A DNA stretch of 46,794 bases from a virus, in the IMG/VR virus record IMGVR_UViG_3300032401_000019, positions 1-46,794 of that record; one strand, given 5' to 3'. This document shows positions 3,655-36,310 of this stretch, in pieces. The notes beneath the pieces were generated by a model, which was not told where the DNA came from, searched no databases, and was given only the letters and a program-made list of their open reading frames with translations. Numbering within the stretch: the first letter of the stretch is position 1; each line of letters starts with the position of its first letter. A program made the position numbers and the translations under genes.

Positions 3655-6600
3655 TTAACTCAATATATCATAAACGTAGTCATCTTCAATTTGAATAACG
3701 TTTGTTTTCTTAAATGAATCATAATCTAATCTACCATATACTAATAATATTTTACCTATAGAGTTATCAAAGTATTTACGTTGCTCTTGCCAATATTTAC
3801 TCCAAAAATTTACATGTAATTCATCACCATTTGAATCTAACACTATATTAGCAAATTTACCCTTTTTACTATTTCTTTCTATTACATCTTTAATTATACC
3901 ACCTACAATTACTCTTTTATTATTGCTTTGTTTATAAGTATTATAACCATTATTTGAATAAGTTGTTTGAACATCGGAATCCCAATCAAAATATTCCTCG
4001 TTAGTACAATATAATGATACTGGGTTTTTAATTTTTTTATCTAAATTTGATTCTTTTATTACGTTGCTAAAATTAAATATAGCGAAATTAGATACTTCTA
4101 TTTGTCTTAATTTCCACCAATATTCTTTGTCTATATTGTCAGATAATAATAACTCATTATAATCCACTTCCTTAACATTTTGTGTATCATAATATTTAAA
4201 AAATAAATTTATTCTATCTCTTATGTCTATTACGTTTTCTATAATATCAAAAGCACCTGCAAAAATAAGATTTTCAATTACTCTTTTATTTACTTTACTT
4301 TTATTTATTCTTTTAATAAATTCATCTAAAGAAAAGAAATTTCCATTTTTATTTCTTTCATCAATAATGGCTTTAGCGGCACTTTCCCCTAATTGTTTTA
4401 TTTTAATTAATGACCAATATATGATTTTTTTATCAAAGTCAGTATAAAAATGCTCATAAGAATTATTTACATCAACACTGTTAATAATTATATCTTTATT
4501 TATTTTACTTATTTCAGAAATAAATCGATTGGCTTTGGAATCATTAGAATCATCAAATTGGAAAGCTGTGGTCCAAAATTCTAAAGAATAATGATATTTT
4601 AAATATTGACATATATATCCAGTTATTGCATATGCAGTAGCATGACTTAAATTAAATCCATAACCAGCAAATGCTTCTAATTTATACCATATTTTTTCTG
4701 CTTCAAAAAAATCACAATTATTATTTACAGCTCCAGTTATAAATTGTTGTTTATATGGTTCTAATATTGATATTTTTTTCTTACCCATAGCTGCTCTTAT
4801 ATCATCTGCTTCATGTAGCGACATATTACCTAATATTCTGCATGCTTGCATTACTTGTTCTTGATATATATATAAACCATAAGTGCTTTTTGTTATATCT
4901 TCTAGCATATAATCATATTCTGGATTTTTACGTCCAAATTTTAAATTTATATAATCTATATGCGCATTAGATTGCATTGCACCAGGTCTATATAATGAAA
5001 CCATGGCTATTAATTCTTTTATATTTTCAGGTTTAACATCTTTTGAATATTTAGTTAAACCTGGAGTACCAAATTGAAATACGTCAGCCGTATATCCTTT
5101 TTTAAATAATTCATAAATATTAATATCTTCTAAATTTAAATTATATATATCTATATCAATATTATAATTTTTTTTAATAATATTAATAATATTCTTAAAT
5201 TTATCTAACTGTTTAACACCTAATATATCTTCTTTTAAATATCCTGCTTTAGCTAAATGTTCACCTTCCCATTCAGATACTAATATATTATCAATAATCC
5301 TAACTGGAATAGAATTATATATATTTTTATTATCTGGCAATATTAGCATAGCACATGCATGAATAGATTGATTGCGAGGTTGCTTTAACACTAAATTAAT
5401 ATCATTAAATAAATCAACATTGTCTTTTATAAATTTTTTTAATGCTGGTTTATTTTTTAAATCTTTAAATATATTACACCAATCTTTATTTGATGAATCA
5501 ATCATTTTACTATAAAAATTAATTGTACTATGACTAATTCCACGTTGTTTACCTAAATCAACCATAGCAGCTTTAGATTGCAATCTACCATAAGTTCCAA
5601 TTGAACATACATGATTTATACCATATTTTTCTTCTATATATTTTTTTATTATATCTCTTTTATTGCCTTCAAAATCCATATCTATATCTGGAAGCTTTTT
5701 TCTTCCTTCATTCATAAATCGCTCAAATAATAAATCATATTTTATTGGGTCTATTTCTATTATGTTTAATAAATAACTAATTAAAGCTCCAGCAGCTGAA
5801 CCTCTACCTATCCCAACTAATATATCATTTATTTTACAAAATAAAACAATATCCCATAATATAAGAAAATAATCTATAAAACCTTGTTTTTTTATTACAT
5901 TAAATTCTTTTTCTATTCTATCTATATATAATTGTTCATTATCTACTTTATTTTTTATTTTTTTATTAAATCCTTCTTTTATTAAATTTAAAAACAATGT
6001 TTCATTATTAATAAATGATGGTTTATATAATGAATCATCTGCTAATTTAAAATTAGGCAAAAATAAAGTATTAGTATTTATTTTAAAATTACATATATTA
6101 GATAGTTCATTAGCATTATCGCATATTTTAATAAATAAATTTAACATTTCATCTTCATTATCAAATAATTTTGATAAAATATTAAAATTATCATCAGCGT
6201 TTTTCATATATTGATTATTAGAAATAGCTTGATGTGATAGCCCAGCAATTTTATTTAAAATATATTTTATATGATTATCTTCATAATCTAAATAATATGT
6301 ATCATTTATAAGAATAGCTGGTATTTCATTAATAAAATTATCAATATAATTTTTTTGATTTAATAAATAATCTCTATCACGTGAATCACTTTCCCAAATA
6401 ACTGTATCAATTTGATAATATAAAAATTTAAAATATTTTTTATATTCATTTATTAATTCTTTATTCAAAATAGTTTTAGAATCAAAAATGCAAATCAATC
6501 CTTTAGAATATTTAAATAAATCATCTTGACTTATATATCTAAATTGTTTATTATCAATATTTATAATTTTATTTATAAATAATAAATTTTCCCAACCAAT

Positions 6601-7173
6601 TTCATCTATTACATAAAGTTTTATTTCAATTTTATTATCATTATTATTTATAACTATCTCTTCACCTAATATTGATTTAATATTATATTCTTCACAAATG
6701 AATTGGAATGATATAGTACCAGCAAGTGTATTTCTTTCACATATAGCTAAAGTATCATATTTTAAAAATTTAGCTTTTTCACACCAATCATCATATTTTG
6801 TAGAACCATTTAATATTTCATAACTACCATGAACACCTAAATAAGTTTGTAATGCAATTAATTCTTGATTAGCTTTACCAATATATTTAAATAAATTTAA
6901 TTTAGGATTATCAATATCTTTTAATAAATCATAATAATATTTACCACCAAATTCATATAATACATATTTAATATTTAAATCAGTATTTAATAAAAATGAT
7001 TTATCATTTTTATCTAAAATTATATGAAAATTATCATCAAATATACATTCTCTTTCATCTTCTAAAAATAAAAAAGCACCATCATATTCTTCAACATATA
7101 ATATTCTATCATATTGTATAGTAACTGATAATTTATTATCAAATATCCATTTATTTATATTCTTTTTATTCAT
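3655..7173 (-). CDS. dnaE: C-family (DnaE-type) DNA polymerase III alpha subunit
   Basis: A replicative polymerase of about 1172 residues, full length for DnaE. The palm has GIGRGSAAGA and then PDIDMDF at about 495-501, whose Asp residues bind the catalytic metals. An N-terminal PHP-like region is recognisable (LGVHGSYEILNG ... LAICERNTLAG), but the HxHS and DHG metal ligands are lost, so the PHP site is probably inactive. A C-terminal OB-fold region (VIVGGIIKDVIERNSKKGKF) follows. The ATG at 7173 is preferred over an in-frame GTG at 7197, because the ATG overlaps the end of the small zinc-finger gene by only 8 bases. Proofreading would come in trans from the DnaQ-like protein at 18956-19591. 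Confidence 0.93.
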   Translation of the reverse strand: MNKKNINKWIFDNKLSVTIQYDRILYVEEYDGAFLFLEDERECIFDDNFHIILDKNDKSFLLNTDLNIKYVLYEFGGKYYYDLLKDIDNPKLNLFKYIGKANQELIALQTYLGVHGSYEILNGSTKYDDWCEKAKFLKYDTLAICERNTLAGTISFQFICEEYNIKSILGEEIVINNNDNKIEIKLYVIDEIGWENLLFINKIINIDNKQFRYISQDDLFKYSKGLICIFDSKTILNKELINEYKKYFKFLYYQIDTVIWESDSRDRDYLLNQKNYIDNFINEIPAILINDTYYLDYEDNHIKYILNKIAGLSHQAISNNQYMKNADDNFNILSKLFDNEDEMLNLFIKICDNANELSNICNFKINTNTLFLPNFKLADDSLYKPSFINNETLFLNLIKEGFNKKIKNKVDNEQLYIDRIEKEFNVIKKQGFIDYFLILWDIVLFCKINDILVGIGRGSAAGALISYLLNIIEIDPIKYDLLFERFMNEGRKKLPDIDMDFEGNKRDIIKKYIEEKYGINHVCSIGTYGRLQSKAAMVDLGKQRGISHSTINFYSKMIDSSNKDWCNIFKDLKNKPALKKFIKDNVDLFNDINLVLKQPRNQSIHACAMLILPDNKNIYNSIPVRIIDNILVSEWEGEHLAKAGYLKEDILGVKQLDKFKNIINIIKKNYNIDIDIYNLNLEDINIYELFKKGYTADVFQFGTPGLTKYSKDVKPENIKELIAMVSLYRPGAMQSNAHIDYINLKFGRKNPEYDYMLEDITKSTYGLYIYQEQVMQACRILGNMSLHEADDIRAAMGKKKISILEPYKQQFITGAVNNNCDFFEAEKIWYKLEAFAGYGFNLSHATAYAITGYICQYLKYHYSLEFWTTAFQFDDSNDSKANRFISEISKINKDIIINSVDVNNSYEHFYTDFDKKIIYWSLIKIKQLGESAAKAIIDERNKNGNFFSLDEFIKRINKSKVNKRVIENLIFAGAFDIIENVIDIRDRINLFFKYYDTQNVKEVDYNELLLSDNIDKEYWWKLRQIEVSNFAIFNFSNVIKESNLDKKIKNPVSLYCTNEEYFDWDSDVQTTYSNNGYNTYKQSNNKRVIVGGIIKDVIERNSKKGKFANIVLDSNGDELHVNFWSKYWQEQRKYFDNSIGKILLVYGRLDYDSFKKTNVIQIEDDYVYDILS

Positions 7174-7342
7174 TATTAACTTGTTTAATTGGCACACTAC
7201 CTATACCACTACAAGTATTGCATTTAACATAATCTTGTGTTTGATAAAAATATTTTTTACCTAAACCTTTACAAGTATTACACAATTCAAGTTTTTTTAT
7301 AAAAACTATATTTTGCTTTTTATTAATTTCCTGTGCTTCCAA
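7166..7342 (-). CDS. Small DnaJ-type zinc-finger protein
   Basis: A short reading frame of about 58 residues, found by translating the gap between the replicase and dUTPase genes. It holds two CxxCxGxG motifs (CNTCKGLG and CNTCSGIG), the pattern of the DnaJ cysteine-rich zinc domain. There is no ATG in frame; a TTG at 7342, inside the end of the dUTPase gene, is the most plausible start. The stop overlaps the ATG of the replicase by 8 bases, so translation of the three genes is probably coupled. Such mini zinc fingers often bind protein or nucleic acid. No specific partner can be named from the sequence. Confidence 0.6.
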   Translation of the reverse strand: MEAQEINKKQNIVFIKKLELCNTCKGLGKKYFYQTQDYVKCNTCSGIGSVPIKQVNNE

Positions 7343-7808
7343 AACCAGCTTCTCCTCTATTAGTTAATTTATTTATATCATCTACTAATTCTATATTACA
7401 ATAAAATATAGGCATTAAAAGAAATTGTATTATTTTTTGTTCTTCGCATATAGTTATAGTGTAATTTGAAGTATTAACTAAGTTTATATGTATTTCTCCA
7501 GTATAATCTTCATCTATTACACAAGCTAATACATCTAATCCATATTTAGACGATATACCAGATTTATTAAAAGCAATTAAAACATAATTATTAGGAATAT
7601 CTACTTTAATCCCGGACGGTATTAATACACGTTCACCAGAAGATAATTCAAATGTTTTTTCATTTAAATTTATAAATAATTTTGGATTTTTATCTAATAA
7701 AATTTCTATAAAATCTTTATCAAATTTTGGTATAAAAAAGTCTATACCTGCACTTTTTGTAGTACCCCTATTTGGAGTCTTTACATTTCTAATTTTTTGT
7801 ATCTTCAT
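7323..7808 (-). CDS. dut: dUTPase (trimeric type)
   Basis: A 161-residue protein that hydrolyses dUTP to dUMP and pyrophosphate, keeping uracil out of DNA and supplying dUMP. All the trimeric dUTPase motifs are visible: AGIDFF (20-25), FNKSGISSKYGLDVLA (80-95), CVIDEDYTGE (96-105, with the catalytic Asp and Tyr) and the C-terminal P-loop-like RGEAGFGSTG (151-160). Its start overlaps the kinase gene upstream by 20 bases, and its end overlaps the small zinc-finger gene. In this operon it could also feed the modified-pyrimidine pathway by limiting dUTP. Activity on dCTP cannot be judged by eye. Confidence 0.93.
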   Translation of the reverse strand: MKIQKIRNVKTPNRGTTKSAGIDFFIPKFDKDFIEILLDKNPKLFINLNEKTFELSSGERVLIPSGIKVDIPNNYVLIAFNKSGISSKYGLDVLACVIDEDYTGEIHINLVNTSNYTITICEEQKIIQFLLMPIFYCNIELVDDINKLTNRGEAGFGSTGN

Positions 7809-8322
7809 TTTTTATAAATTTTATGATTTGTATTAAATTTTCTTCTATACTATTTTTAGATATATCTAAAATAAAATTTTTCATATTTGTTTCATATTGT
7901 AGATAATATAAATAATGATTATTTATGCTATCTACATCATTAACATTAACACATTCATCTGTAAAATTAAATTTATAATTAGAATTATAACAAAATATAA
8001 TTTTTGCATTAAGTTTATAGAATTGCTCATCTAATTCTTTTATTTTAATAAAATTTGTATGTCTATTATATGTTTTAGAATAACTATATTCGCAAATGAA
8101 TGAACGGTCTAAAATAATACCAGTCTTTTTTTGCTTTATAATATCTAATAATATATCATTATCATACATTAATGAATGATATGAAGCAATATTATCGTGG
8201 AATAACCCACATTGTTTATTTTTTTTATAATAATCTATATTTAATTTTTCAGCTAACATTTTAGCTAACGTTGTTTTACCAGACTTATCAGCACCAGCAA
8301 ATATTATTATCTCTTTATCCAT
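7789..8322 (-). CDS. P-loop deoxynucleoside monophosphate kinase-like protein
   Basis: A 177-residue P-loop kinase. Walker A is GADKSGKTT (10-18), and a DRS motif occurs at 72-74 within ILDRSFICEYSYS, a feature of thymidylate kinases and deoxynucleoside kinases. The lid region is short. It lies between the dUTPase (20-base overlap) and the glucosyltransferase-like gene (8-base overlap). In T4 the equivalent step is done by gp1, which phosphorylates hydroxymethyl-dCMP, so this protein is the obvious candidate for that job here. The substrate is inference from the neighbours; dTMP is the main alternative. Confidence 0.7.
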   Translation of the reverse strand: MDKEIIIFAGADKSGKTTLAKMLAEKLNIDYYKKNKQCGLFHDNIASYHSLMYDNDILLDIIKQKKTGIILDRSFICEYSYSKTYNRHTNFIKIKELDEQFYKLNAKIIFCYNSNYKFNFTDECVNVNDVDSINNHYLYYLQYETNMKNFILDISKNSIEENLIQIIKFIKNEDTKN

Positions 8323-9403
8323 TTATTAATATATTATAAAATTCTATAAAAAATTTATTTTTATTAAAAATTAAATTATTTATTATAGATTGCTGTTCTT
8401 TTAATATGTCTTTATATAAATTAACATTTTCTTTTAATAATTTTATTTTTTTATATAAATCATTTTTATCTTTTATTATAAGAAATTCTTTAATTTTTAA
8501 ATTTAATTTTATTAAATTTTTAATATCAAAAGTATCATCCATAAATGTTATTGTATCTGTTAGATAGCATTGATATAATCTTGATGATATAGTGTATATA
8601 TCTTTTTTAAAATTAAATGATTCATAATCAGTCAATATTATAGTAGCAAATGAATTATATAACTCATAAAACACTTGCTCAAATGATATTTTATTATTAT
8701 AAATAGTTGGATGTATATTTTTAAACATATTATTGTTAAATGAACCGCGTATGACATTACTACAATCATCAATTAATAAATTATCTAATTTTTTTATTCG
8801 CATTTTTTTACTTCCGCTACCAGCATAATATACATCATATTTAATGTTTTTATCTTTTTTATTTATTAAAAAATTATAATAATCTCTTGAAAATGGCACA
8901 AATTTCTCTATTGGAAAATAATATACTTTACTTATTATAATATTATTATCTTTTTCTATTACATTCTTAACTAAATCTATATTATAAAATTGTGATATAA
9001 GTTTAATATTTTTATTATTTAATTCAATATTAAAAAATCTAGATAAAAAAATATCTTCAAAAAATAAAAAAATATCAACATTATTATTGTTAATAAAACT
9101 TATTAATTTATCATAACAATTTTTTCTATTAGATAATTCTAATATTAAAGAACCATTATTTAATATTATTTTATTTAAATTTAATTTAGATAAATCTATA
9201 TTATTTATGTTTATTTCATAAATATTTTTAGATATTTGTTTTGTTGTAAAAGAAGAATCAATATCATTTAATATATAATAATTTACATCTACATCTATAG
9301 ATACTAAATGTCGTATTAGTGTCATTATTTCAGAACTACCACTATTTGTCATATCAATACCAATATCAGTATTGGCTCCTATTTTATATATGCCTATGTT
9401 CAT
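8315..9403 (-). CDS. T4 beta-glucosyltransferase-like DNA glucosyltransferase
   Basis: A 362-residue protein (T4 BGT has 351) that aligns with T4 BGT from memory across its length. The start MNIGIYKIG matches MKIAIINMG. S-S-E at 23-25 matches the T4 PSSE glucose-site Glu. FFEDIF (D117) matches the T4 segment with catalytic Asp100. YYFPIE (161-166) matches EYFPIE. DVYYAGS with R202 matches DVIYGGS with its downstream Arg. R275 in SSRLYQ matches the LRVWE Arg, although the T4 Glu is Gln here. FMDDTFD matches LIDEEFD. The predicted role is transfer of glucose from UDP-glucose to hydroxymethylcytosine in finished DNA. It is encoded directly after the dCMP hydroxymethylase-like gene with a 20-base overlap. 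Confidence 0.78.
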   Translation of the reverse strand: MNIGIYKIGANTDIGIDMTNSGSSEIMTLIRHLVSIDVDVNYYILNDIDSSFTTKQISKNIYEININNIDLSKLNLNKIILNNGSLILELSNRKNCYDKLISFINNNNVDIFLFFEDIFLSRFFNIELNNKNIKLISQFYNIDLVKNVIEKDNNIIISKVYYFPIEKFVPFSRDYYNFLINKKDKNIKYDVYYAGSGSKKMRIKKLDNLLIDDCSNVIRGSFNNNMFKNIHPTIYNNKISFEQVFYELYNSFATIILTDYESFNFKKDIYTISSRLYQCYLTDTITFMDDTFDIKNLIKLNLKIKEFLIIKDKNDLYKKIKLLKENVNLYKDILKEQQSIINNLIFNKNKFFIEFYNILING

Positions 9404-10196
9404 ATTCTATGCATTTTTCTATATTTTTATTTAAATATTCTCCATTTATATTAATTATATTTTCTTTTAATATCATTTGTTTATTTAAAAAATCATTTTC
9501 TAATATTTCATTTAATAATTTAAAATGTTTTTCATATATATGAAGTGAATAACTTGAATGATTATAAACACCTAATTGTAAATCTTTATAAGTTTCTTTT
9601 AAATGTAAAAAAACTTGTTGTTGTAATAAACAAAAAAATGGAACATCTGTTGGCAATCCTAATATTATATCAGAACTCCGCATACAAATATTCATATTCA
9701 ATTTATTATCTCTTATATAAAACCAAGCGTGTAGTGTACAAATAAAATCTTTATTATCATCATATTGATATGCTGGTTGATTAAAAAACATTATAGCTTG
9801 TCTAGTATTTTTATCTTTAATTAAAGAATTAATTGCCCATTTATATTGAGTATAATTATATTCATTTTTTTTATTAAATAATAAAAATCCATACGCAGAA
9901 TTAATAGTATTATCTTTATTAGTTATTTGTTCCCAAAATTTAGCATATTTTTTTATAAAATCTAAATCATTTCTTCCGCTAAAATACCATTGTAATTCTG
10001 CAATTATATAATCTAATTGAGAAGATCGTCTTTTATTATAATAAAGACAATTTATAGGATTTTTTAATAAAAAATTGATATTCAATAATTCATATGTTTT
10101 CAAATCTCTACAATCAATATCGTATTGATAATTATTTTTTAATTTATTTAAAAAATATTTATATATATTAGAAAATTTATATGAACTATAAAACAT
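9384..10196 (-). CDS. dCMP hydroxymethylase-like enzyme (thymidylate synthase fold)
   Basis: A 270-residue thymidylate-synthase-fold protein. Conserved residues: E67 in AELQWYF, the folate-side Trp in FWEQ, Y102 in AYGF, R132 in TRQAIMFF, nucleophile C153 in FICTLHAW, R173 and D176 in MRSSDIILG, and H219/Y221 in LHIYEKH. The Asn that reads uracil in thymidylate synthase lies 31 residues after the nucleophile. Here that place is D184 (GLPTDVPF), as in T4 gp42, where C148 and D179 are also 31 apart. This Asp selects cytosine. The enzyme should therefore make 5-hydroxymethyl-dCMP from dCMP and methylene-tetrahydrofolate. A dCMP methylase is the alternative, but the adjoining glucosyltransferase favours hydroxymethylation. 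Confidence 0.85.
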   Translation of the reverse strand: MFYSSYKFSNIYKYFLNKLKNNYQYDIDCRDLKTYELLNINFLLKNPINCLYYNKRRSSQLDYIIAELQWYFSGRNDLDFIKKYAKFWEQITNKDNTINSAYGFLLFNKKNEYNYTQYKWAINSLIKDKNTRQAIMFFNQPAYQYDDNKDFICTLHAWFYIRDNKLNMNICMRSSDIILGLPTDVPFFCLLQQQVFLHLKETYKDLQLGVYNHSSYSLHIYEKHFKLLNEILENDFLNKQMILKENIININGEYLNKNIEKCIEYEHRHI

Positions 10197-10597
10197 TAAT
10201 TTACTCTTTTAAAATAATTTTTATTATTTGCTTTTATTTTATAATAATCATGACCACGTTTTTTATCTTTAGCATAAGCTATTATTTTACCAGTTAATTC
10301 TACTTTTTCTTTTTTACAAAAGAAAGTTATTTCTGTATTAATTGGTTTTAATTCAATAGATTGCTCTATTTCATTTTGCTCAATATTTTTTTCTGTTTTT
10401 TTCATATTTTCTTTTTTTATTTGATTAATGTTATTAATTGGTTTTAATTCAACTTTTTTTATAAACTTTAATATACCGCGCTGTGCAAGTATTTCTATCA
10501 TTGCCTCTTTTTCTATATCATTAAATAAAGTACTATTTAAATAGTTTTTTAATTGTTCATTTGAATATTTTTCCCATTTAAAATGAAGTTCATCCAT
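10196..10597 (-). CDS. Hypothetical protein with repeated ELKPIN segment
   Basis: A 133-residue protein. Its N-terminus is helical and acidic (MDELHFKWEKYSNEQLKNYL), the middle is a Lys/Glu/Asn-rich linker, and the C-terminal basic domain of about 40 residues ends YYKIKANNKNYFKRVN. The motif ELKPIN occurs twice, encoded by a perfect 21-base direct repeat 96 bases apart. Its stop codon shares one base with the start of the hydroxymethylase gene, so the two are translationally coupled. Not recognised; a DNA-binding or accessory role in the modification operon would be speculation. Confidence 0.6.
   Translation of the reverse strand: MDELHFKWEKYSNEQLKNYLNSTLFNDIEKEAMIEILAQRGILKFIKKVELKPINNINQIKKENMKKTEKNIEQNEIEQSIELKPINTEITFFCKKEKVELTGKIIAYAKDKKRGHDYYKIKANNKNYFKRVN
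10336..10452 (-). repeat. Pair of perfect 21-base direct repeats
   Basis: The 21-base sequence at 10336-10356 recurs exactly at 10432-10452, 96 bases away and in the same reading frame. Both copies encode ELKPIN. The middle of the gene between them is low in complexity, so this looks like an internal duplication within the linker of the 133-residue protein. Confidence 0.8.
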
Positions 10598-10607
10598 ATT
10601 TTTATTT

Positions 10608-10862
10608 TTAATTAATAAAATTTTTAATAAATGAATTATTGTCTATTAATAATATATTATTATCTTTTATATTATATTTAATATTAAAATTATCAAATAA
10701 TTCTATACATTTAATAAAAATATCTTCATCAATTAATTCTAAATTGCTGCTTTTATTATCTTCACTAATATCGCCACTTAGATATATTTGCTTATTAAAT
10801 GTTTTACTTAGAATATCTTGTAATTTACAAAATATTTCTCCTAATAAATCACGTTGTGTCAT
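10608..10862 (-). CDS. Small hypothetical protein
   Basis: An 84-residue, mainly helical protein (starts MTQRDLLGEIFCKLQDIL) with an acidic middle. It is the first gene of the nucleotide-modification operon and follows an 84-base intergenic region with promoter-like features. I do not recognise a family, and no catalytic or membrane motif is visible. Its stop lies about 10 bases before the next start. Confidence 0.5.
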   Translation of the reverse strand: MTQRDLLGEIFCKLQDILSKTFNKQIYLSGDISEDNKSSNLELIDEDIFIKCIELFDNFNIKYNIKDNNILLIDNNSFIKNFIN

Positions 10863-13603: not shown

Positions 13604-13869
13604 GTTTTATTGTTTTTGAATTTATAATAAAATACCAAAAATAACCAAATAACGTTAATTGAAAATATAGCTAATCCGCCTATGAAGCTCGATATTTGGT
13701 TTAAACTTGGGTAATAATATAAATTCCATACACCCCATATAGTAAAAAATGCAGTTGGAACCCAACTTACACCCATTAATTTTTTATCTTTTAATAATAT
13801 ACGTATGTTTATTATTAAAAATGCACTTGCACCAAATTCGAATAAACTATTGATTAAATCATTACTCAT
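13600..13869 (-). CDS. Small integral membrane protein
   Basis: An 89-residue protein with about three hydrophobic segments, roughly at residues 10-27, 35-53 and 58-82. The loops are short and the C-terminal tail is basic (YYKFKNNKT). It overlaps the metallophosphoesterase gene upstream by 8 bases and the DUF1599-like gene downstream by 4 bases. No transporter motif is clear. It might affect the host envelope or exclude other phages, but nothing in the sequence proves this. Confidence 0.6.
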   Translation of the reverse strand: MSNDLINSLFEFGASAFLIINIRILLKDKKLMGVSWVPTAFFTIWGVWNLYYYPSLNQISSFIGGLAIFSINVIWLFLVFYYKFKNNKT

Positions 13870-14422
13870 TTTTAAATTTTATTAATTCTTCTATATTTAC
13901 TGGTTTATAATCCCAAACATCTACCCCTACATTAATTACAGGTACATTATATACTTGTATCAAATATCCATCTATGTAAGTAAATCCCAATTTATTATAT
14001 TTCCATTTTTCATGTACATGCCCACAAAAAATATAATCACATTTAGAAGCAATTTCTGTTAAATATACATTATCTATATCATATGGATTAAAAATGAATG
14101 AGGGGTCATGCAATAACAATATATCCATATTTCTATGTTGTAATGTTAGTTTTTTAGGGAGTTCTCCTAAATATCTTTTTCTATCGTGATTACCCCAAAT
14201 ATGAATAATATTTCCATTTAATTGTGAAAGATATGTTTTAGGGTTTTTATTAAAAGAAAAGTCTCCTAATTGATAAACGGTATCGTTTGATTTAACTACA
14301 CTATTCCAATTATCTATTAATACTTTATTCATTTCATCTATAGATACGAATGGTCTATTACAATATTGTATAATGTTTTTATGCCCTAGGTGTAAATCTG
14401 ATGTAAAATATATATTACTCAT
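13862..14422 (-). CDS. Calcineurin-like metallophosphoesterase
   Basis: A 186-residue phosphoesterase of the compact YfcE/MJ0936-like size. Motifs in order: TSDLHLGHKN, LGDFSF, WGNHDRKRY, LLHDPSF and CGHVHEKW, followed by INVGVDVWDYKPV. All metal ligands are present. The gene overlaps the RNA ligase gene by 8 bases, which suggests joint expression. Small phosphoesterases of this kind in phages may act on 2',3'-cyclic phosphates or other nucleotides, so a healing step before RNA ligation is possible. The substrate cannot be told from the sequence. Confidence 0.85.
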   Translation of the reverse strand: MSNIYFTSDLHLGHKNIIQYCNRPFVSIDEMNKVLIDNWNSVVKSNDTVYQLGDFSFNKNPKTYLSQLNGNIIHIWGNHDRKRYLGELPKKLTLQHRNMDILLLHDPSFIFNPYDIDNVYLTEIASKCDYIFCGHVHEKWKYNKLGFTYIDGYLIQVYNVPVINVGVDVWDYKPVNIEELIKFKNE

Positions 14423-15524
14423 GTTTTAATAAGAAATCTGGATTTATAACCTTAAAACTTAATTTTCCCATCTTACTTCTTACAACTACACCTTCTCTTA
14501 ATACATTACAATTCAAAATCGATATGCCTTTAGAATATTGTACTATCTCTGAAATAGTATCTTTTAATATAAATTGGTCATCTATCAAAGGAACGGTTTT
14601 GATATTTAACGGAAATAGTATAGTTTTCATTTCTGCGTTTGTATAATTAAATTTTTTAGAGCCTACGTTTAATTTTAAATTAAAAGCATAAAAATCACAC
14701 CTATCTATATTATATTTATTGTTTTGTATTTTAGGTCCGATAATTTCACCCTGTATAACTATTAAATTTACATTTAAGTATGAACGATGTAATGTTTTTA
14801 ATTTATTTTCAATATCTAATTGTTGAGCTATAGACCAATATGAGCTGTTATCTTTTTTAATTAAATGAAGATTTCTACTACATACTCCGAATATATATTT
14901 TTTCCAAAACTGCCATTTTTTAGGATTTTTTAATAAAAAGAAAGTCGCAGATTGCCCATCTAACTTCTCTGTAACTTCAAATATAGTGTTTTTCTCGCTT
15001 TGGCATATGTTTGGTAAATTTTGTATACGCTCTTCATCTGTTTTAGATATAAATGATGGAAATGGTAGTTTAGATGGTTTTATTAACAATTTTCTATACC
15101 AATTATATCTTTTAAAAAATTTATCTAATCTATTTTTATAAATTTTAGATTGTTCTTCTATTAATTTATTTTCAGCAATTACTTGTGGGTCGTATTTTTT
15201 TACTCCTATTGTATCTGTTAAATCATCCCCTTCTTTTAAATCACGATAAGGATATACAATACTTAATGGAAAACAAATACCTTGACTTATTTGCCCTTTT
15301 AGTTTTATTGTTTTCACACGAAATTTTCTTTCTCGCATAAATTCAAATTCTGATGTTTGTGGTAATATACTATCTATTTCAATATAAATACATAAATCAT
15401 TTATATTAAATTCACCTTTTTTAACAACTAATTCCCAACCCAATATAGTTGCTTTTTCTATTTTATCGGCTCCAATAATTGGTTCTAATTTTATTATTCT
15501 TTGTACTGTTGCTAATTTTCTCAT
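14415..15524 (-). CDS. RNA ligase, DRB0094 (Deinococcus Rnl5) type
   Basis: A 369-residue nucleotidyltransferase. The N-terminal domain of about 110 residues (MRKLATVQRI ... GADKIEKATILGWELVV) is the OB-like module typical of the DRB0094 family. The ligase core has motif I EKLDG, with K187 as the predicted AMP-accepting Lys. It continues with FGVCSRN (motif III-like), IQGEIIGPKIQ, motif IV EGVVVRS (344-350) and motif V SFKVIN (356-361). The characterised relative seals nicks with an RNA 3'-OH end. Here it may repair tRNA or other RNA cut by host defences, with the adjoining phosphoesterase possibly preparing ends. Confidence 0.85.
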   Translation of the reverse strand: MRKLATVQRIIKLEPIIGADKIEKATILGWELVVKKGEFNINDLCIYIEIDSILPQTSEFEFMRERKFRVKTIKLKGQISQGICFPLSIVYPYRDLKEGDDLTDTIGVKKYDPQVIAENKLIEEQSKIYKNRLDKFFKRYNWYRKLLIKPSKLPFPSFISKTDEERIQNLPNICQSEKNTIFEVTEKLDGQSATFFLLKNPKKWQFWKKYIFGVCSRNLHLIKKDNSSYWSIAQQLDIENKLKTLHRSYLNVNLIVIQGEIIGPKIQNNKYNIDRCDFYAFNLKLNVGSKKFNYTNAEMKTILFPLNIKTVPLIDDQFILKDTISEIVQYSKGISILNCNVLREGVVVRSKMGKLSFKVINPDFLLKHE

Positions 15525-22583: not shown

Positions 22584-25040
22584 TTATATTATTTGTAAAA
22601 CCATTTGACCAAATAATCTTATAACTAAACCACCGTTACCAAAATTCCCACCACCATTAAATTCTGTATCTAAATACGCTTTCGGTGGATTTCCGTGATA
22701 CGTGTAATTGAAAGCGGCGTTACCACCGGTTAGATTCAATCCTGTAGCACCGTTTAACGTTGCACAATTGAAAACTAATCTACCCCCGTTTTGTTCAACG
22801 AGCATTGGCATCGCACCGGATGGATAATATGTGGGTGCGGTGTTAGATAAATTATATGTACCATATTGTACTCGCTTGAACAGATACGGTAGTGACAATT
22901 CTATAGCTGCTATTTGCCCTGCAGGGGGTGCACTACTAGTACTAGTAATCGATAATCTCATATCGAAATCTATTAAAACTTCTTTCTGTCTTCTCTTAGT
23001 AGTATAACCACCTGTAACACTACTTAATGAAGATGTTGTAGCTATCGTACCCGCAGTGTTCTGCCATAAAGTAATATCTGAATTAGAAATTGTTACCGGT
23101 GTCTCTTCTTCATCTACTTCATTCATTGAAGCATATACCCAATCACTACCATCATAAGTAAATTTCATAAACAAACCAGCATCAGAATTATCTATAAAAT
23201 CTATATCATTTTGAGTTAATTCTTTAACTAATACATAATTTGTCGGATTTACATAATCTGTTACGATCATTAATTGTTTACTATTTAAATCAATAGTAGG
23301 AATAGGATCCCCTAAACTATCACTTAAATCAGAGGGTGTAAAATGTAAATAAAAATTATTACCGTTCTTTCCTGCTATTTTACTTAAATTAATAAATAAA
23401 TTTGCCCCCAAAACTATCCCATCACCAATTAATTTTTGATATTGTTTTGCTGTTCCTATTTGTAAATTTACGATAGGAGAAGCATTACTCAATGTTCTTT
23501 CTTCTATTCCAAAAGCGTCACCTGTTACTAAATTTTGAATAACGTTATAATAATGATTAATATTTGTTTTTAAAAAAATATAAGCGTATACAGCGTCATT
23601 AGTGTAAGCTGTTCTTGTAGGTGATGCCACTACCACACCCCAATCATCAAATTGGTCTTCAGTGTAATAACCATGTGTGCTATCAGTGGTTGGTAATAAA
23701 GTAAATATAGTATAATTGTTTATTGTTTTATATCTATAATCAACTATATACCCAGTATTATTATTTGTTTGATATACTGGTACCCAACATTTACCTATTC
23801 TTTCGTTAATCTTAAATGTATATATTTTATCACATGTTTCAGTAATATCATATACTGTTGCTGGAAATATTGGTTGAGCTGCTTTAAATCTTATTTGTAT
23901 CTCTTCTGTATCGGGTGTAATTAGTAATTCTTGTGTTAAATCATCTGTAAAATCTTTATAATTTAATGTATCTAACACTAAATTTATAGCACTACCACTT
24001 TTAGATGACGCTTTGATTTTATAATAATTCCCGTTAGATACGTAAATTCTCCAATTATCAAAATCACCATCTGTGAAATCTGCTATTGATTTATATGTAC
24101 CGCCTTCTCCGACATTAAGAGTAACTTTATTAGAATTAGTATCTATTGTCCAATTAGAACTTCTAAAATTCCAACTAATATAAACAACATTATGCTCTTT
24201 AGTAGATATATAATTATCATACTTTATAGCTTCAATTCCTATTAACCCAGCTCCGTTTGTGATATTTATATTTGAAAGTTGGTATTCTGTTCTAGTTTTA
24301 TATATATTATAATTTCTTTTGTCTTCTATATATAAATTAGTACCGTTTCTTTTAACCCTTGCTAAATAAAATATAAAATCAGAATAAACTGGTGGGGTAA
24401 CAGATGAGCTTGACGTTAATGAAAATGTACATGAATCATATTGAAATGGATATTTATCTACTGTATTTATAACTACACCTGGTGTGAATGTTCCTATAAC
24501 TGAAAAATTAAGATCAGTTTCACTTGTGAATACTCCTTGTAATATCGCATTATTATCATCTATAACACTTAATACTTCATATTCTAGTATATTATAAGTA
24601 GCATTTGAGAATTTTATTTTAGTTGGGAAATTAGGTTGCCCTCTGAATATTTTTAAAAACTCACAACTTCCATCGCCTACTAAATTACCACTTATATCTA
24701 TACTAACAACACCTGTTTCTAAAGTAGAATATGCTTGTGTTATTTGAACCCAATACCACGTGTTATCATTAGGTACGCTTATTAAATCTGTAGCTGGTTT
24801 ATATATTAAATTACCATTAGCATCGATAGCCTTTATTTCACTGTGTTTAATAGTACCTACATTAGTTCCTTGTTCGGTTAAACCATTACTCCAATTATCA
24901 TCTAATGTATTCTTAACTAAACCAAACTTTAAACTATTATCTTTTAAAAACGCCCTGAATCCATTATCATCTAATGATTCTTTTAATCGTGTTAGTTCTA
25001 TTTTACCTAAGAATAAATCTTGTGCATATTTTAAATACAT
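22584..25040 (-). CDS. Large tail fibre or baseplate-distal protein
   Basis: An 818-residue protein, strongly beta-rich with many Thr, Ser, Asn and Gly. The N-terminus (MYLKYAQDLFLGKIELTRLKE) lacks a signal peptide and looks like an attachment region. Multiple beta segments follow, and a Gly/Asn-rich end (FNGGGNFGNGGLVIRLFGQM) resembles trimeric fibre tips. Base composition is richer in G and C at the 3' end than in neighbouring genes, as is common for receptor-binding tips that are exchanged between phages. Receptor binding is inferred. Confidence 0.6.
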   Translation of the reverse strand: MYLKYAQDLFLGKIELTRLKESLDDNGFRAFLKDNSLKFGLVKNTLDDNWSNGLTEQGTNVGTIKHSEIKAIDANGNLIYKPATDLISVPNDNTWYWVQITQAYSTLETGVVSIDISGNLVGDGSCEFLKIFRGQPNFPTKIKFSNATYNILEYEVLSVIDDNNAILQGVFTSETDLNFSVIGTFTPGVVINTVDKYPFQYDSCTFSLTSSSSVTPPVYSDFIFYLARVKRNGTNLYIEDKRNYNIYKTRTEYQLSNINITNGAGLIGIEAIKYDNYISTKEHNVVYISWNFRSSNWTIDTNSNKVTLNVGEGGTYKSIADFTDGDFDNWRIYVSNGNYYKIKASSKSGSAINLVLDTLNYKDFTDDLTQELLITPDTEEIQIRFKAAQPIFPATVYDITETCDKIYTFKINERIGKCWVPVYQTNNNTGYIVDYRYKTINNYTIFTLLPTTDSTHGYYTEDQFDDWGVVVASPTRTAYTNDAVYAYIFLKTNINHYYNVIQNLVTGDAFGIEERTLSNASPIVNLQIGTAKQYQKLIGDGIVLGANLFINLSKIAGKNGNNFYLHFTPSDLSDSLGDPIPTIDLNSKQLMIVTDYVNPTNYVLVKELTQNDIDFIDNSDAGLFMKFTYDGSDWVYASMNEVDEEETPVTISNSDITLWQNTAGTIATTSSLSSVTGGYTTKRRQKEVLIDFDMRLSITSTSSAPPAGQIAAIELSLPYLFKRVQYGTYNLSNTAPTYYPSGAMPMLVEQNGGRLVFNCATLNGATGLNLTGGNAAFNYTYHGNPPKAYLDTEFNGGGNFGNGGLVIRLFGQMVLQII

Positions 25041-25052
25041 ATCTTATAGTTT

Positions 25053-26783
25053 TTATATATAAATATTTTTAAATATTGTATTATATGGTAATAGAAAACG
25101 TCTTAATGTATCTTCTATTGTTTCTAATGAATCGTATTTATTATTATTTTTTACCCATATTTCAATAAAGTTTGACAATTGTATAAATCCAGTTTCAAAC
25201 GGAGTTGCTAATGGTTTAACTTTCAAATCCTTTATTAATAAACAATTTGTATTAAGTGGTTGTCCTTCTATTACTATATATGGGATTATTTTTGATATAT
25301 CTGATGCTAATTTCAAATTACACCCGAATCCTATATTTAATAAGGCATCTGTTGTTGATAAAGCTGGAGCAGTTGTCGCATACATTATACCTCTAACAAA
25401 ATACCACGTATCTCTTTTATTTAACGTTACATTAGAAAAAAATGTATTTTGAGTCAATGAGGTTACTGAGCTTAATAAATTTTTATGATTATTTGAAATA
25501 TCAAATCCGTATACGCCGAACGTAAATGGTGTATCTACTAAAGACCAGCTATTACTGCAACTATCACTTATACTATCACTTATACTCTCACTTATATCAT
25601 CATCGAAAGAAGGTTGTTTTACCCAGAACGAAATCTCATAATTTAAACTAGAATCTACTTTTATAGTCTTAGAAAAATCTGTATCAATTAATGAATCTAA
25701 ATCTGGAGCTATTCCAGCTATTTCACCTACAGGAACATTTACTATTTCCATTACCCATTCTCCATTGTTTTTCTCTCTAGATACATGACCTCTATTATAA
25801 ATAGGATATAGGCTTAAATCGAATACTTGTTCACTATCTTCATATGCTTTATTAATTGAATTTTGAATAGTTAATCCTTTAAATAAAGGACTGCTATTGT
25901 CTACATTCCAACCACAATGTTCTCTTTTTACTTTATTAAATATAAATTCATCACCTGGGTTATATGATATTAGTCTCAATAACTCCCCATCTACTTGTTT
26001 ATCTATATTAGATTTACTACTATATATATTTGTAGTATTTTCTTGTGTATTTATATTTTCTTTTGTTATTTGAATAGTTCCTCTTTGTCTAATCTCATCA
26101 TTATATTTCCATTTTAAATACAATAAATCTTGTATGTTTTGATTATCTCTAACGAATAAATTTCTTTCTTTTAAAAAATCTTGTAATAAAGCAGCATTAG
26201 AATCTATTTTTTCTAATAAATCACGACCATATATTATTATGGTTGCGAAAAAGAAAGCGATGGATTTAAAAAAATCTATATAATCTCTATCCTCTGAACT
26301 ATCTTGATTAGCTCTTCTAATTATATAATTAGGAACTATTCCGTTTTTATATAATTTATCTAAAACATTTACACACCAAGCTATAACATCTAAATCTGGA
26401 TAATTTATAAATTGATGAAAAATACTTTTATTGAACGCGCTATTTGAATTTATCGATTGAAATGTGCTATTTAATGAGATACTAGTGAATTCTAACACTC
26501 CTGTGTCATCATTTCCAGTACGAGTATATTTATATTGAATATAAAAATAATCACCCGGATTAACACTTATTGCTTGTAAATTAGCATTATTTAATGGTAT
26601 ATAATCTGAATAATTTAAACCGTCAGTCGAATATTTAAATTCTTTAATGAAGTATCTATTAGCTGTTTCTCCGACAAGCACATCTGTATAACTATTAATA
26701 GAGGTTAATCCAACTAATGGTATATCTGCTACGATAAGAAATATATCCCCTATTTCAGTACAACTATTATTTATTATAGCCAT
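25053..26783 (-). CDS. Tail/baseplate-attached structural protein
   Basis: A 576-residue protein. Residues about 110-230 form a helical region (FHQFINYPDLDVIAWCVNVLDKLY ... LLQDFLKERN) like the fibre-attachment domains of baseplate proteins. The second half is beta-rich, with a carbohydrate-binding-like segment (YEISFWVKQPSF ... DTWYFVRGIMYA). A short SISD tandem repeat lies near residue 400. It directly precedes the 818-residue fibre-like gene by 12 bases. A role linking fibres to the baseplate is plausible but not shown. Confidence 0.55.
   Translation of the reverse strand: MAIINNSCTEIGDIFLIVADIPLVGLTSINSYTDVLVGETANRYFIKEFKYSTDGLNYSDYIPLNNANLQAISVNPGDYFYIQYKYTRTGNDDTGVLEFTSISLNSTFQSINSNSAFNKSIFHQFINYPDLDVIAWCVNVLDKLYKNGIVPNYIIRRANQDSSEDRDYIDFFKSIAFFFATIIIYGRDLLEKIDSNAALLQDFLKERNLFVRDNQNIQDLLYLKWKYNDEIRQRGTIQITKENINTQENTTNIYSSKSNIDKQVDGELLRLISYNPGDEFIFNKVKREHCGWNVDNSSPLFKGLTIQNSINKAYEDSEQVFDLSLYPIYNRGHVSREKNNGEWVMEIVNVPVGEIAGIAPDLDSLIDTDFSKTIKVDSSLNYEISFWVKQPSFDDDISESISDSISDSCSNSWSLVDTPFTFGVYGFDISNNHKNLLSSVTSLTQNTFFSNVTLNKRDTWYFVRGIMYATTAPALSTTDALLNIGFGCNLKLASDISKIIPYIVIEGQPLNTNCLLIKDLKVKPLATPFETGFIQLSNFIEIWVKNNNKYDSLETIEDTLRRFLLPYNTIFKNIYI
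25561..25596 (-). repeat. Three 12-base tandem repeats encoding Ser-Ile-Ser-Asp
   Basis: The unit CTATCACTTATA on the plus strand is present twice exactly and a third time with one change. It encodes SISD/SISE repeats in a loop of the 576-residue tail protein. The unit length is a multiple of three, so copy number changes keep the frame. Confidence 0.75.
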
Positions 26784-27530: not shown

Positions 27531-28103
27531 TTAAAATTTTTCTATTATAGTACCAGTAAAAACACTTCCATATATTGGAAGCGCTTTGTTAGTTAATTCT
27601 ATTATTTTATTAAAAAAAGGACTTTCAGCTCCCATACATTCTTCAGACCAATTATTTACATTATATCCACTACGACCGGGATTGCTCATAGCGTGCCAAT
27701 GTGTATGGTTTTGATTATCTATTATAATATTACTTTTATCTATATTTCCGCCTGGAAATACTTTCCAACATTTTAAGTTTTTAATTTGTCTAAAGTGCGG
27801 GAAAGTGAACGGATAACGGGATAATGATATTCCATTACTAAATCGCCACGCTTGACTATATTGTCCTGGTAATAACATATATGTAATAATATTATTTTTA
27901 CCCGGCTTTGTAGTACATGGTATAGATAATATTTGTGGTTCGTTATTTATATAATATAAACAATAGTATACATCATCGAATTTATTAGTTATTTCTTCAG
28001 ATGTTCTTACCCATATATGATTTAAATTGTAATCACCGTTATCGAAAAATTTATACCCTAAATCTAATACACGTTGTCTTATTGAATCGAAATCACTATT
28101 CAT
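27531..28103 (-). CDS. Putative peptidoglycan-active protein
   Basis: A 190-residue protein without a signal peptide. It contains HTHWHAMSNPGRSGYNVNNW followed by SEECMGA, an arrangement of His residues and then N-W-S-x-x-C. This resembles phage proteins with the pattern His-Gly-x(n)-N-W-S-x-G-C, related to L,D-transpeptidase or carboxypeptidase-like lysis enzymes. The Gly before the Cys is Glu here. It overlaps the nuclease gene by 8 bases and is followed by the spanin-like gene. An endolysin role is possible; the exact bond cleaved cannot be stated. Confidence 0.4.
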   Translation of the reverse strand: MNSDFDSIRQRVLDLGYKFFDNGDYNLNHIWVRTSEEITNKFDDVYYCLYYINNEPQILSIPCTTKPGKNNIITYMLLPGQYSQAWRFSNGISLSRYPFTFPHFRQIKNLKCWKVFPGGNIDKSNIIIDNQNHTHWHAMSNPGRSGYNVNNWSEECMGAESPFFNKIIELTNKALPIYGSVFTGTIIEKF

Positions 28104-28728
28104 ACTTTATCATTTTTTTTAATTTTTCTTCCACCATTCCTATTATTTTAAAATTATATATTTGATATATTTTATAATCTACTATTGATTTATTAGGTAT
28201 TAGATATGCTTCACATTCTTTAGACTTATATATATAACACACTTTGAAAAAATATGTGGGTATTTTAAATTTTTCATTATTTAATGTATCATATATTAAC
28301 CCCGTTATAACTAATACGCTGTCATACCCCTTACTTAAATCTCTTACATGTTCTTCTAGTAACTTCCATTGCCCTCTATTTAATTGTGGATTCTGTGGTA
28401 CTATATTAGTCATATAAAAGCATTTCTTTTCAACCACAGCATTATATCTAAAATCTTCTGCAGGACTTAAATGCCCTTTATCATAATTGCTATGGCTATA
28501 ATCTTTGTTAGTTAATTGATATTGCGCGTATCTTTCATCTATTTTAAAACCACTAGCTCTATTACAACTTTTATTAGCTATTTTAGCTTGTGTTAAAATA
28601 TAATATGAATATTTAGTAGTTTTATATATAGTGTCTAAATATACTTTAAAACCCGAATAATCAACTATTATTTGTGAGAAGGACGTTTTTATTATAAATA
28701 ACAATAATATTAAAATTATTTTTCTCAT
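28096..28728 (-). CDS. Secreted DNA/RNA non-specific endonuclease (NUC family)
   Basis: The ATG at 28728 gives 210 residues beginning with a clean signal peptide, MRKIILILLLFIIKTSFS, followed by QIIVD at the predicted cleavage site. It also gives a four-base ATGA overlap with the upstream gene, so it is preferred over a longer frame from 28788. The beta-beta-alpha-metal nuclease motif is YDKGHLSPAEDF (DKGH at 83-86, with H86 as general base), then MTNIVPQNPQLNRGQW, whose Asn binds the metal. It would act outside the cytoplasm, for example on DNA in the periplasm or medium. A lysis-linked or superinfection-related role is inferred. Confidence 0.85.
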   Translation of the reverse strand: MRKIILILLLFIIKTSFSQIIVDYSGFKVYLDTIYKTTKYSYYILTQAKIANKSCNRASGFKIDERYAQYQLTNKDYSHSNYDKGHLSPAEDFRYNAVVEKKCFYMTNIVPQNPQLNRGQWKLLEEHVRDLSKGYDSVLVITGLIYDTLNNEKFKIPTYFFKVCYIYKSKECEAYLIPNKSIVDYKIYQIYNFKIIGMVEEKLKKMIKYE

Positions 28729-28952
28729 GTTAAATTTTTTAAATTTATACCATGTTCCGAAACCCCTATACCTGCACAAAATACACATTTACTTTCTAAT
28801 CCGTATTGTTCTACTTTTTGTAAACCGCAACATACAGGACATATTTTATATATATGTGATTTGTTTATATAATCTTTTAATTTACAATCATCACACACTT
28901 GTGTTATATCTTTACATATTTTATTAATATTTTTTTTATAACACTGTACCAT
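28725..28952 (-). CDS. Small DnaJ-type zinc-finger protein
   Basis: A 75-residue Cys-rich protein with ICKDITQVCDDCK near the start, then CPVCCGLQK and CVFCAGIG. The last two match the CxxCxG pairs of the DnaJ zinc domain, so at least one zinc site is likely. The C-terminus is short and polar. It overlaps the secreted nuclease gene by four bases (ATGA) and follows the phosphoesterase gene by 7 bases. It is the second mini zinc finger of this type in the window, after 7166-7342. Function unknown. Confidence 0.6.
   Translation of the reverse strand: MVQCYKKNINKICKDITQVCDDCKLKDYINKSHIYKICPVCCGLQKVEQYGLESKCVFCAGIGVSEHGINLKNLT

Positions 28953-33997: not shown

Positions 33998-36310
<2,313 letters not shown>

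Follow-up and report, generated by a model that had tools for sequence, protein, structure and literature searches.

Can a phage that replicates with a DnaE-type DNA polymerase, far from the T4 lineage, code for the type of cytosine modification known from T4? This question is raised by a virus record of IMG/VR, IMGVR_UViG_3300032401_000019, analysed here over its positions 1 to 46,794 (this whole stretch is the window in what follows). It has about 26% GC and carries nearly all its genes on the minus strand. There, four genes follow one another in the order hydroxymethylase, glycosyltransferase, kinase, dUTPase, with successive overlaps of 20, 8 and 20 nucleotides. A preliminary description of this DNA had proposed an operon of this kind, with the same overlaps, and its open reading frames (ORFs) are found where it placed them. 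It had further predicted that the operon specifies a glucosyl-5-hydroxymethylcytosine pathway, and this finds support in the beta-glucosyltransferase (BGT) fold and family of the 362-residue protein, together with the dCMP-specific Asp of its neighbour. The four genes very probably form a cassette for DNA with glycosylated 5-hydroxymethylcytosine (hmC) as the predicted product. They are the following:

9384..10196, minus strand, predicted dCMP 5-hydroxymethylase, T4 gp42-like, thymidylate synthase superfamily, 270 amino acids (PF00303, E 1.1e-20)
8315..9403, minus strand, predicted DNA beta-glucosyltransferase, divergent GT72, 362 amino acids (profile alignment and predicted fold)
7789..8322, minus strand, P-loop nucleoside monophosphate kinase, thymidylate-kinase-like phrog_761, 177 amino acids (phrog_761, E 9.5e-12)
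7323..7808, minus strand, trimeric-type dUTPase, 161 amino acids (PF00692, E 3.5e-20; phrog_135, E 9.2e-36)

The last enzyme of such a pathway is the glycosyltransferase. Seven weak matches only were returned by tblastn of the 362-residue protein, at a lenient threshold, among 50,697 phage records: six are BGTs of Acinetobacter phages (some annotated, others the same gene left without annotation), and the seventh is a protein of the huge phage LR756500. Direct comparison with T4 BGT by BLASTP gives 25% identity over 225 residues. Aligned by hhalign to a profile of ten BGTs, the protein scores a probability of 99.0% (E 7.9e-18, 326 columns), where the controls, T4 alpha-glucosyltransferase (alpha-GT) and an unrelated protein of the window (an RNA ligase), score 0.9% and 0.2%. 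With its AlphaFold2 model (pLDDT 70.7, pTM 0.72), the top six Foldseek matches are all T4 BGT (E 7.8e-14, the next match being at 5.5e-5), and VIA superposes it on T4 BGT with Z 24.8 and an rmsd of 3.8 over 325 residues, as compared with Z 21.0 for alpha-GT; since the model was built from an alignment that includes BGT relatives, the evidence from sequence and that from fold are not fully independent. The catalytic base of T4, D100, is kept as D117, and the invariant E22, R195 and R269 are kept as E25, R202 and R275; K205 and D259 stand for K198 and D258, while T4 D283 and D287 have identical counterparts and an equivalent of K237 is also present. Taken together, profile and predicted fold identify the protein as a divergent T4-type BGT of CAZy family GT72. 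Structure comparison was the test named by the preliminary description for its BGT-like protein, and it places the 362-residue protein inside the BGT fold and family, with the GT-B fold of T4 BGT along its full length. Two other searches with this protein led elsewhere: its matches among PDB sequences (best E 0.014) are low-complexity-looking and are not glycosyltransferases, and a peptide-pattern scan of viral contigs gave a single false hit, a terminase on L002, the same scan of genome contigs giving no match.

The enzyme that would prepare its acceptor is also of the T4 kind. The best match of the 270-residue protein among PDB sequences is T4 dCMP hydroxymethylase, gp42 (E 5.5e-23). Its nucleophile C153 aligns with C148 of T4 and C146 of Escherichia coli, and a Thr follows this catalytic Cys as it does in gp42. 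The column of pyrimidine specificity (177 in E. coli thymidylate synthase, D179 in T4) is occupied by D184, a residue that is invariant across 13 relatives. Asp at this position is the rule for cytosine-modifying enzymes of metagenomic phages that were chosen for their modified cytosine (PMC8670742). The AlphaFold2 model (pLDDT 92) has Z of 24-28 to the thymidylate synthase superfamily; when folds are ranked the CMP hydroxymethylase MilA comes first, and T4 gp42 and thymidylate synthases follow at a short distance. We read the protein as a predicted dCMP-type pyrimidine hydroxymethylase, and the gp42-like assignment of the preliminary description holds on both counts, best PDB match and dCMP-specific Asp.

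To be sure, a series of points weighs against a straightforward pathway of the T4 type. The modification of the DNA of this phage is predicted from its genes. Pfam and PHROG searches with the 362-residue protein give nothing meaningful, with no match to PF09198 or phrog_7922 at E <= 1, and it could be identified only by way of profiles and structure. These hidden Markov models, which are detection tools and not defining features of the family, miss it because it is too divergent, its identity to any relative being 20-26%. It lacks some 17 residues at about T4 positions 104-121 (the loop W109-Y121), it has lost the N70/G73/G74 motif (I, L and S stand there), and R191 and E272 are replaced by Ser and Gln; W109-Y121, N70/G73/G74 and E272, conserved or nearly so in the comparison set, are features of conservation and not known requirements for membership. 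In the T4 enzyme, several of the positions concerned belong to the donor site and to loops that face the DNA, so that neither the exact sugar nor the DNA contacts can be assumed; given the lost loop and motif and the replacements of R191 and E272, the donor or the acceptor could differ from that of T4 BGT. A last point concerns the removal of dCTP. In T4, dCTP is destroyed by gp56. No gene of the gp56 type (phrog_173) or of the PRA-PH/MazG type (PF01503) was found in the 46.8-kb window, which is a fragment, and full replacement of cytosine is thus not assured.

The differences in the glycosyltransferase bear on the foremost of the competing explanations, in which hmC is made but the divergent GT72 enzyme adds another sugar, or uses another nucleotide-sugar donor, and the modification is not glucose. 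Arabinose modification is indeed present in phage RB69, through other enzymes. The replacements at the donor-site positions R191 and E272, Ser at T4 Y261, the missing loop, the loss of N70/G73/G74 and the silence of PF09198 all speak for it. Yet equivalents of R195, K198, D258, R269, K237 and of the catalytic D100 are kept, Gln at position 272 is shared with the BGT of LR756500/L061, and no sugar-nucleotide synthesis gene is seen in the window; we consider this explanation unlikely, and glucose the more natural expectation. Much less probable still is that the enzyme of the thymidylate synthase family is a flavin-dependent dCMP hydroxylase, similar to AfhB, instead of a folate-dependent hydroxymethylase, which would lead to sugar-bearing 5-hydroxycytosine. 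AfhB of phage HY126 (9iqu/9iqc) is among the close folds, with Z of about 25 over 209-219 residues, but profile comparison brings the protein far nearer to T4 gp42 (E 1.9e-59) and MilA (6.7e-51) than to this flavin-dependent phage enzyme (1.6e-27), and the partner is a BGT, for which the known acceptor is hydroxymethylcytosine. It is equally improbable that we deal with an ordinary thymidylate synthase, supplying dTTP together with the kinase and the dUTPase, next to a glycosyltransferase with some other target, a surface glycan for example. The family is labelled thymidylate synthase in PHROGs and GenBank, and the two accompanying enzymes are compatible with dTTP synthesis too; against this, the specificity column holds Asp and not the Asn of SPO1 dUMP hydroxymethylase and of E. 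coli ThyA, Thr follows the catalytic Cys, gp42 is the best match, the best thymidylate synthase comes well after it in profile comparison (E 2.8e-34), and the partner belongs to GT72, a family known from phages only (PMC13216743). The extremely low GC of the 362- and 270-codon open frames (16-18%) and the strong divergence of the glycosyltransferase might suggest decayed genes that no longer function; this too is very improbable, as the overlapping frames are intact, both enzymes retain their invariant catalytic residues and the model of the hydroxymethylase is of high confidence.

Returning to the cassette as a set for glycosylated hmC, the two smaller proteins fit less closely with T4. The P-loop dNMP-kinase-like protein of the preliminary description is a P-loop kinase, but of the thymidylate-kinase-like phrog_761; its match to phrog_139, the T4 gene 1-type dNMP kinase family, is marginal (E 0.008). 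We propose this 177-residue protein as a candidate 5-hydroxymethyl-dCMP (hmdCMP) kinase. The dUTPase matches PDB dUTPases at E 8e-19 and displays the conserved motifs up to GFGSTG. It had been counted among the core steps of T4: the family stands, the correspondence does not, the enzyme being trimeric (phrog_135) and not gp56. As in the window, neither phrog_173 nor PF01503 is detected in the complete genomes of the Enterococcus phages VPE25 and nattely, T4 as a control being detected with phrog_173; VPE25 DNA is modified nonetheless. The cassettes of the window and of VPE25 both hold a trimeric dUTPase and both lack a gp56 homologue, which fits the idea that this dUTPase is a candidate replacement for gp56. 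It is put forward as a hypothesis only, because the motifs look ordinary and many phages carry a dUTPase gene. One may go further and tentatively combine the two oddities of the locus: an enzyme of the trimeric dUTPase fold would do the work of gp56 by clearing dCTP and providing dCMP, and the loop-less GT72 enzyme with its altered donor site would add a non-glucose sugar or read hmC without the loop of T4, a conjunction that we consider rather unlikely.

The course of the pathway, as homology suggests it, would begin with the hydroxymethylase placing a hydroxymethyl group on C5 of dCMP. The phrog_761 kinase would then phosphorylate hmdCMP, a host kinase finishing the triphosphate hmdCTP, which the DnaE replicase of the phage would incorporate into DNA. 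Subsequently, as its family, fold and kept catalytic Asp lead us to expect, the GT72-type enzyme would flip the base out and move a sugar onto the hydroxyl, most likely glucose from UDP-glucose. Meanwhile the dUTPase would exclude uracil from DNA and supply dUMP for thymidylate synthesis; it may act on dCTP too, yielding dCMP. The outcome would be a phage DNA shielded from restriction enzymes and from DNA-targeting Cas nucleases.

How far is this set found elsewhere? T4 has both enzyme families in the same order (b-gt directly downstream of gene 42), with the same catalytic residues and the same predicted product. By contrast, the phage of the window belongs to another lineage, with a DnaE replicase; its glycosyltransferase is about 25% identical and misses a loop, the window has no gp56 dCTPase and no alpha-GT is seen there, and the kinase is of phrog_761, not clearly of the T4 gene 1 type. 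A nearer parallel in gene content is provided by the Enterococcus phages VPE25, VFW and nattely (Vipetofemvirus), where a phrog_761 kinase, a hydroxymethylase, a phrog_135 dUTPase and a BGT are neighbours. They differ in their Gram-positive host, in gene order (in VPE25 the dUTPase sits between hydroxymethylase and BGT) and in sequence, protein identity being only 21-38%. VPE25 DNA withstands bisulfite conversion as well as EcoRI and MspI, and PvuRts1I cuts it, from which its authors infer glycosylated hydroxymethylcytosine (PMC4999554). By analogy, this gene content supports the function predicted for the gene set of the window, and, with the same four families and glycosylated cytosine, it sets a precedent for the pathway outside T4-like phages.

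Among uncultured phages, the huge phage LR756500 (IMG/VR contig G001) has the closest hydroxymethylase (51.5%) and dUTPase (49%) of the named records. Some 1.4 kb separate its hydroxymethylase from a BGT downstream, and a kinase gene lies directly upstream of the former. However, the genome is of 462 kb, the dUTPase is distant from the cassette, and the BGT is longer and nearer to that of T4 (PF09198, E 6.7e-23). In the IMG/VR contigs found through BGT, a hydroxymethylase homologue is always present (6/6), and in five of the six the phrog_761 kinase gene adjoins one of this pair or lies not far from it. In sum, this kinase adjoins or is near the hydroxymethylase or the BGT in VPE25 and nattely, in LR756500/G001 and in contigs G002-G005. 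That a kinase, a hydroxymethylase, a dUTPase and a BGT recur together in unrelated phages points to a module that can be transferred.

In the cultured Bacteroidota phage MA9V-1, of Chryseobacterium, a thymidylate kinase gene overlaps a gene of the thymidylate synthase family with the dCMP-type Asp (OR050627.1 76225-78161, L116). Its match to the BGT profile is marginal (E 7e-4) and located elsewhere in the genome, in a 383-residue ORF near 52.4 kb; judging from the overlapping pair, MA9V-1 may modify its cytosine. The named phages bearing a BGT in the collections searched infect mainly enterobacteria, Acinetobacter and Enterococcus, no Bacteroidota phage being among the listed genera, and no report of glucosylated hmC in Bacteroidota phages was found in the open-licence literature. 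The window is therefore best read as a divergent case of an established strategy, met in a new lineage, and not as a new kind of system: the association of hydroxymethylase and BGT extends to a DnaE-replicating phage lineage of the Bacteroidota type. Pfam and PHROG models miss its GT72 enzyme, and as a consequence surveys of glucosylation built on them undercount. The locus also raises the question of how phages devoid of gp56 exclude plain dCTP from their own DNA, and its glycosyltransferase, with a loop structure that differs from that of T4 BGT, is a candidate tool for labelling hmC.

Other relatives may have taken a different track for the second step. No BGT was found on contigs G007-G010 and G013 (L004, L006, L017, L018, L016), where hydroxymethylases are about 50% identical to that of the window. 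A carbamoyltransferase or some other second enzyme beside such hydroxymethylases (G007-G013) was considered; the scanned neighbours are genes of an SbcC-like ATPase, a family-2 (GT-A) glycosyltransferase and a gyrase, with no BGT among them. In L004 and L010 a gene of that family-2 type lies a few kb from the hydroxymethylase and may code for another type of enzyme for the second step. On huge-phage contigs that carry a BGT or a hydroxymethylase, a protein of about 610-640 residues is encoded nearby (L001:553-2391, L070:7247-9157, L072:5744-7657); that of L001 joins CofD-like and phosphomannomutase-like domains, those of L070 and L072 look alike by eye, and in L072 a nucleotidyltransferase-like gene follows. 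These proteins may provide a sugar nucleotide or another adduct.

The cassette is flanked upstream by a 133-residue ORF, and downstream by a 58-residue zinc-ribbon ORF and the polymerase gene:

10608..10862, minus strand, 84-residue ORF, first gene of the tight run (no confident match in Pfam or PHROG)
10196..10597, minus strand, 133-residue ORF directly upstream of the hydroxymethylase (no family match below E 0.03 in Pfam or PHROG)
7166..7342, minus strand, CxxCxGxG zinc-ribbon ORF of 58 residues, TTG start, same operon (DnaJ central-domain-like, sub-cut-off in Pfam)
3655..7197, minus strand, DnaE-type DNA polymerase III alpha, 1180 residues, next gene downstream (PF07733, E 8.6e-67)

The stop of the 133-residue ORF and the start of the hydroxymethylase overlap by 1 base, and the zinc-ribbon ORF overlaps the dUTPase gene by 20 nucleotides and the first possible start of DnaE by 32. 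The closest relatives of this DnaE are in Chryseobacterium phage MA9V-3, Cellulophaga phage phiST and its relatives, Tenacibaculum phage Larrie and Bacteroides phages, which agrees with the Bacteroidota-type phage of the preliminary description. The only matches of an unannotated 818-residue protein (22584-25040) are in MA9V-3 and in one contig of a faecal phage. The host is therefore likely a member of the Bacteroidota. The association of a DnaE replicase with T4-type modification had been described as an unusual setting; it is at most a mild oddity, because this replicase is ordinary in Bacteroidota phages. No sibling contig emerged from scans with DnaE and terminase, nor from megablast of window positions 1-25000, so that the closest lineage appears unsampled in the collections searched.

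Further features are found along the window. The 818-residue protein is one of two large proteins without family matches at 22584-26783, the other having 576 residues. At 13862-15524 the genes of a metallophosphoesterase (phrog_547) and an RNA ligase (phrog_968) overlap, possibly forming an RNA repair pair. A gene for a DNA/RNA non-specific endonuclease (28096-28788; PF01223, E 8e-39) could contribute to breakdown of host DNA. Finally, a tail-fibre-like protein with collagen repeats is encoded at 33998-36310, where local GC rises to 38%, as against about 26% elsewhere.

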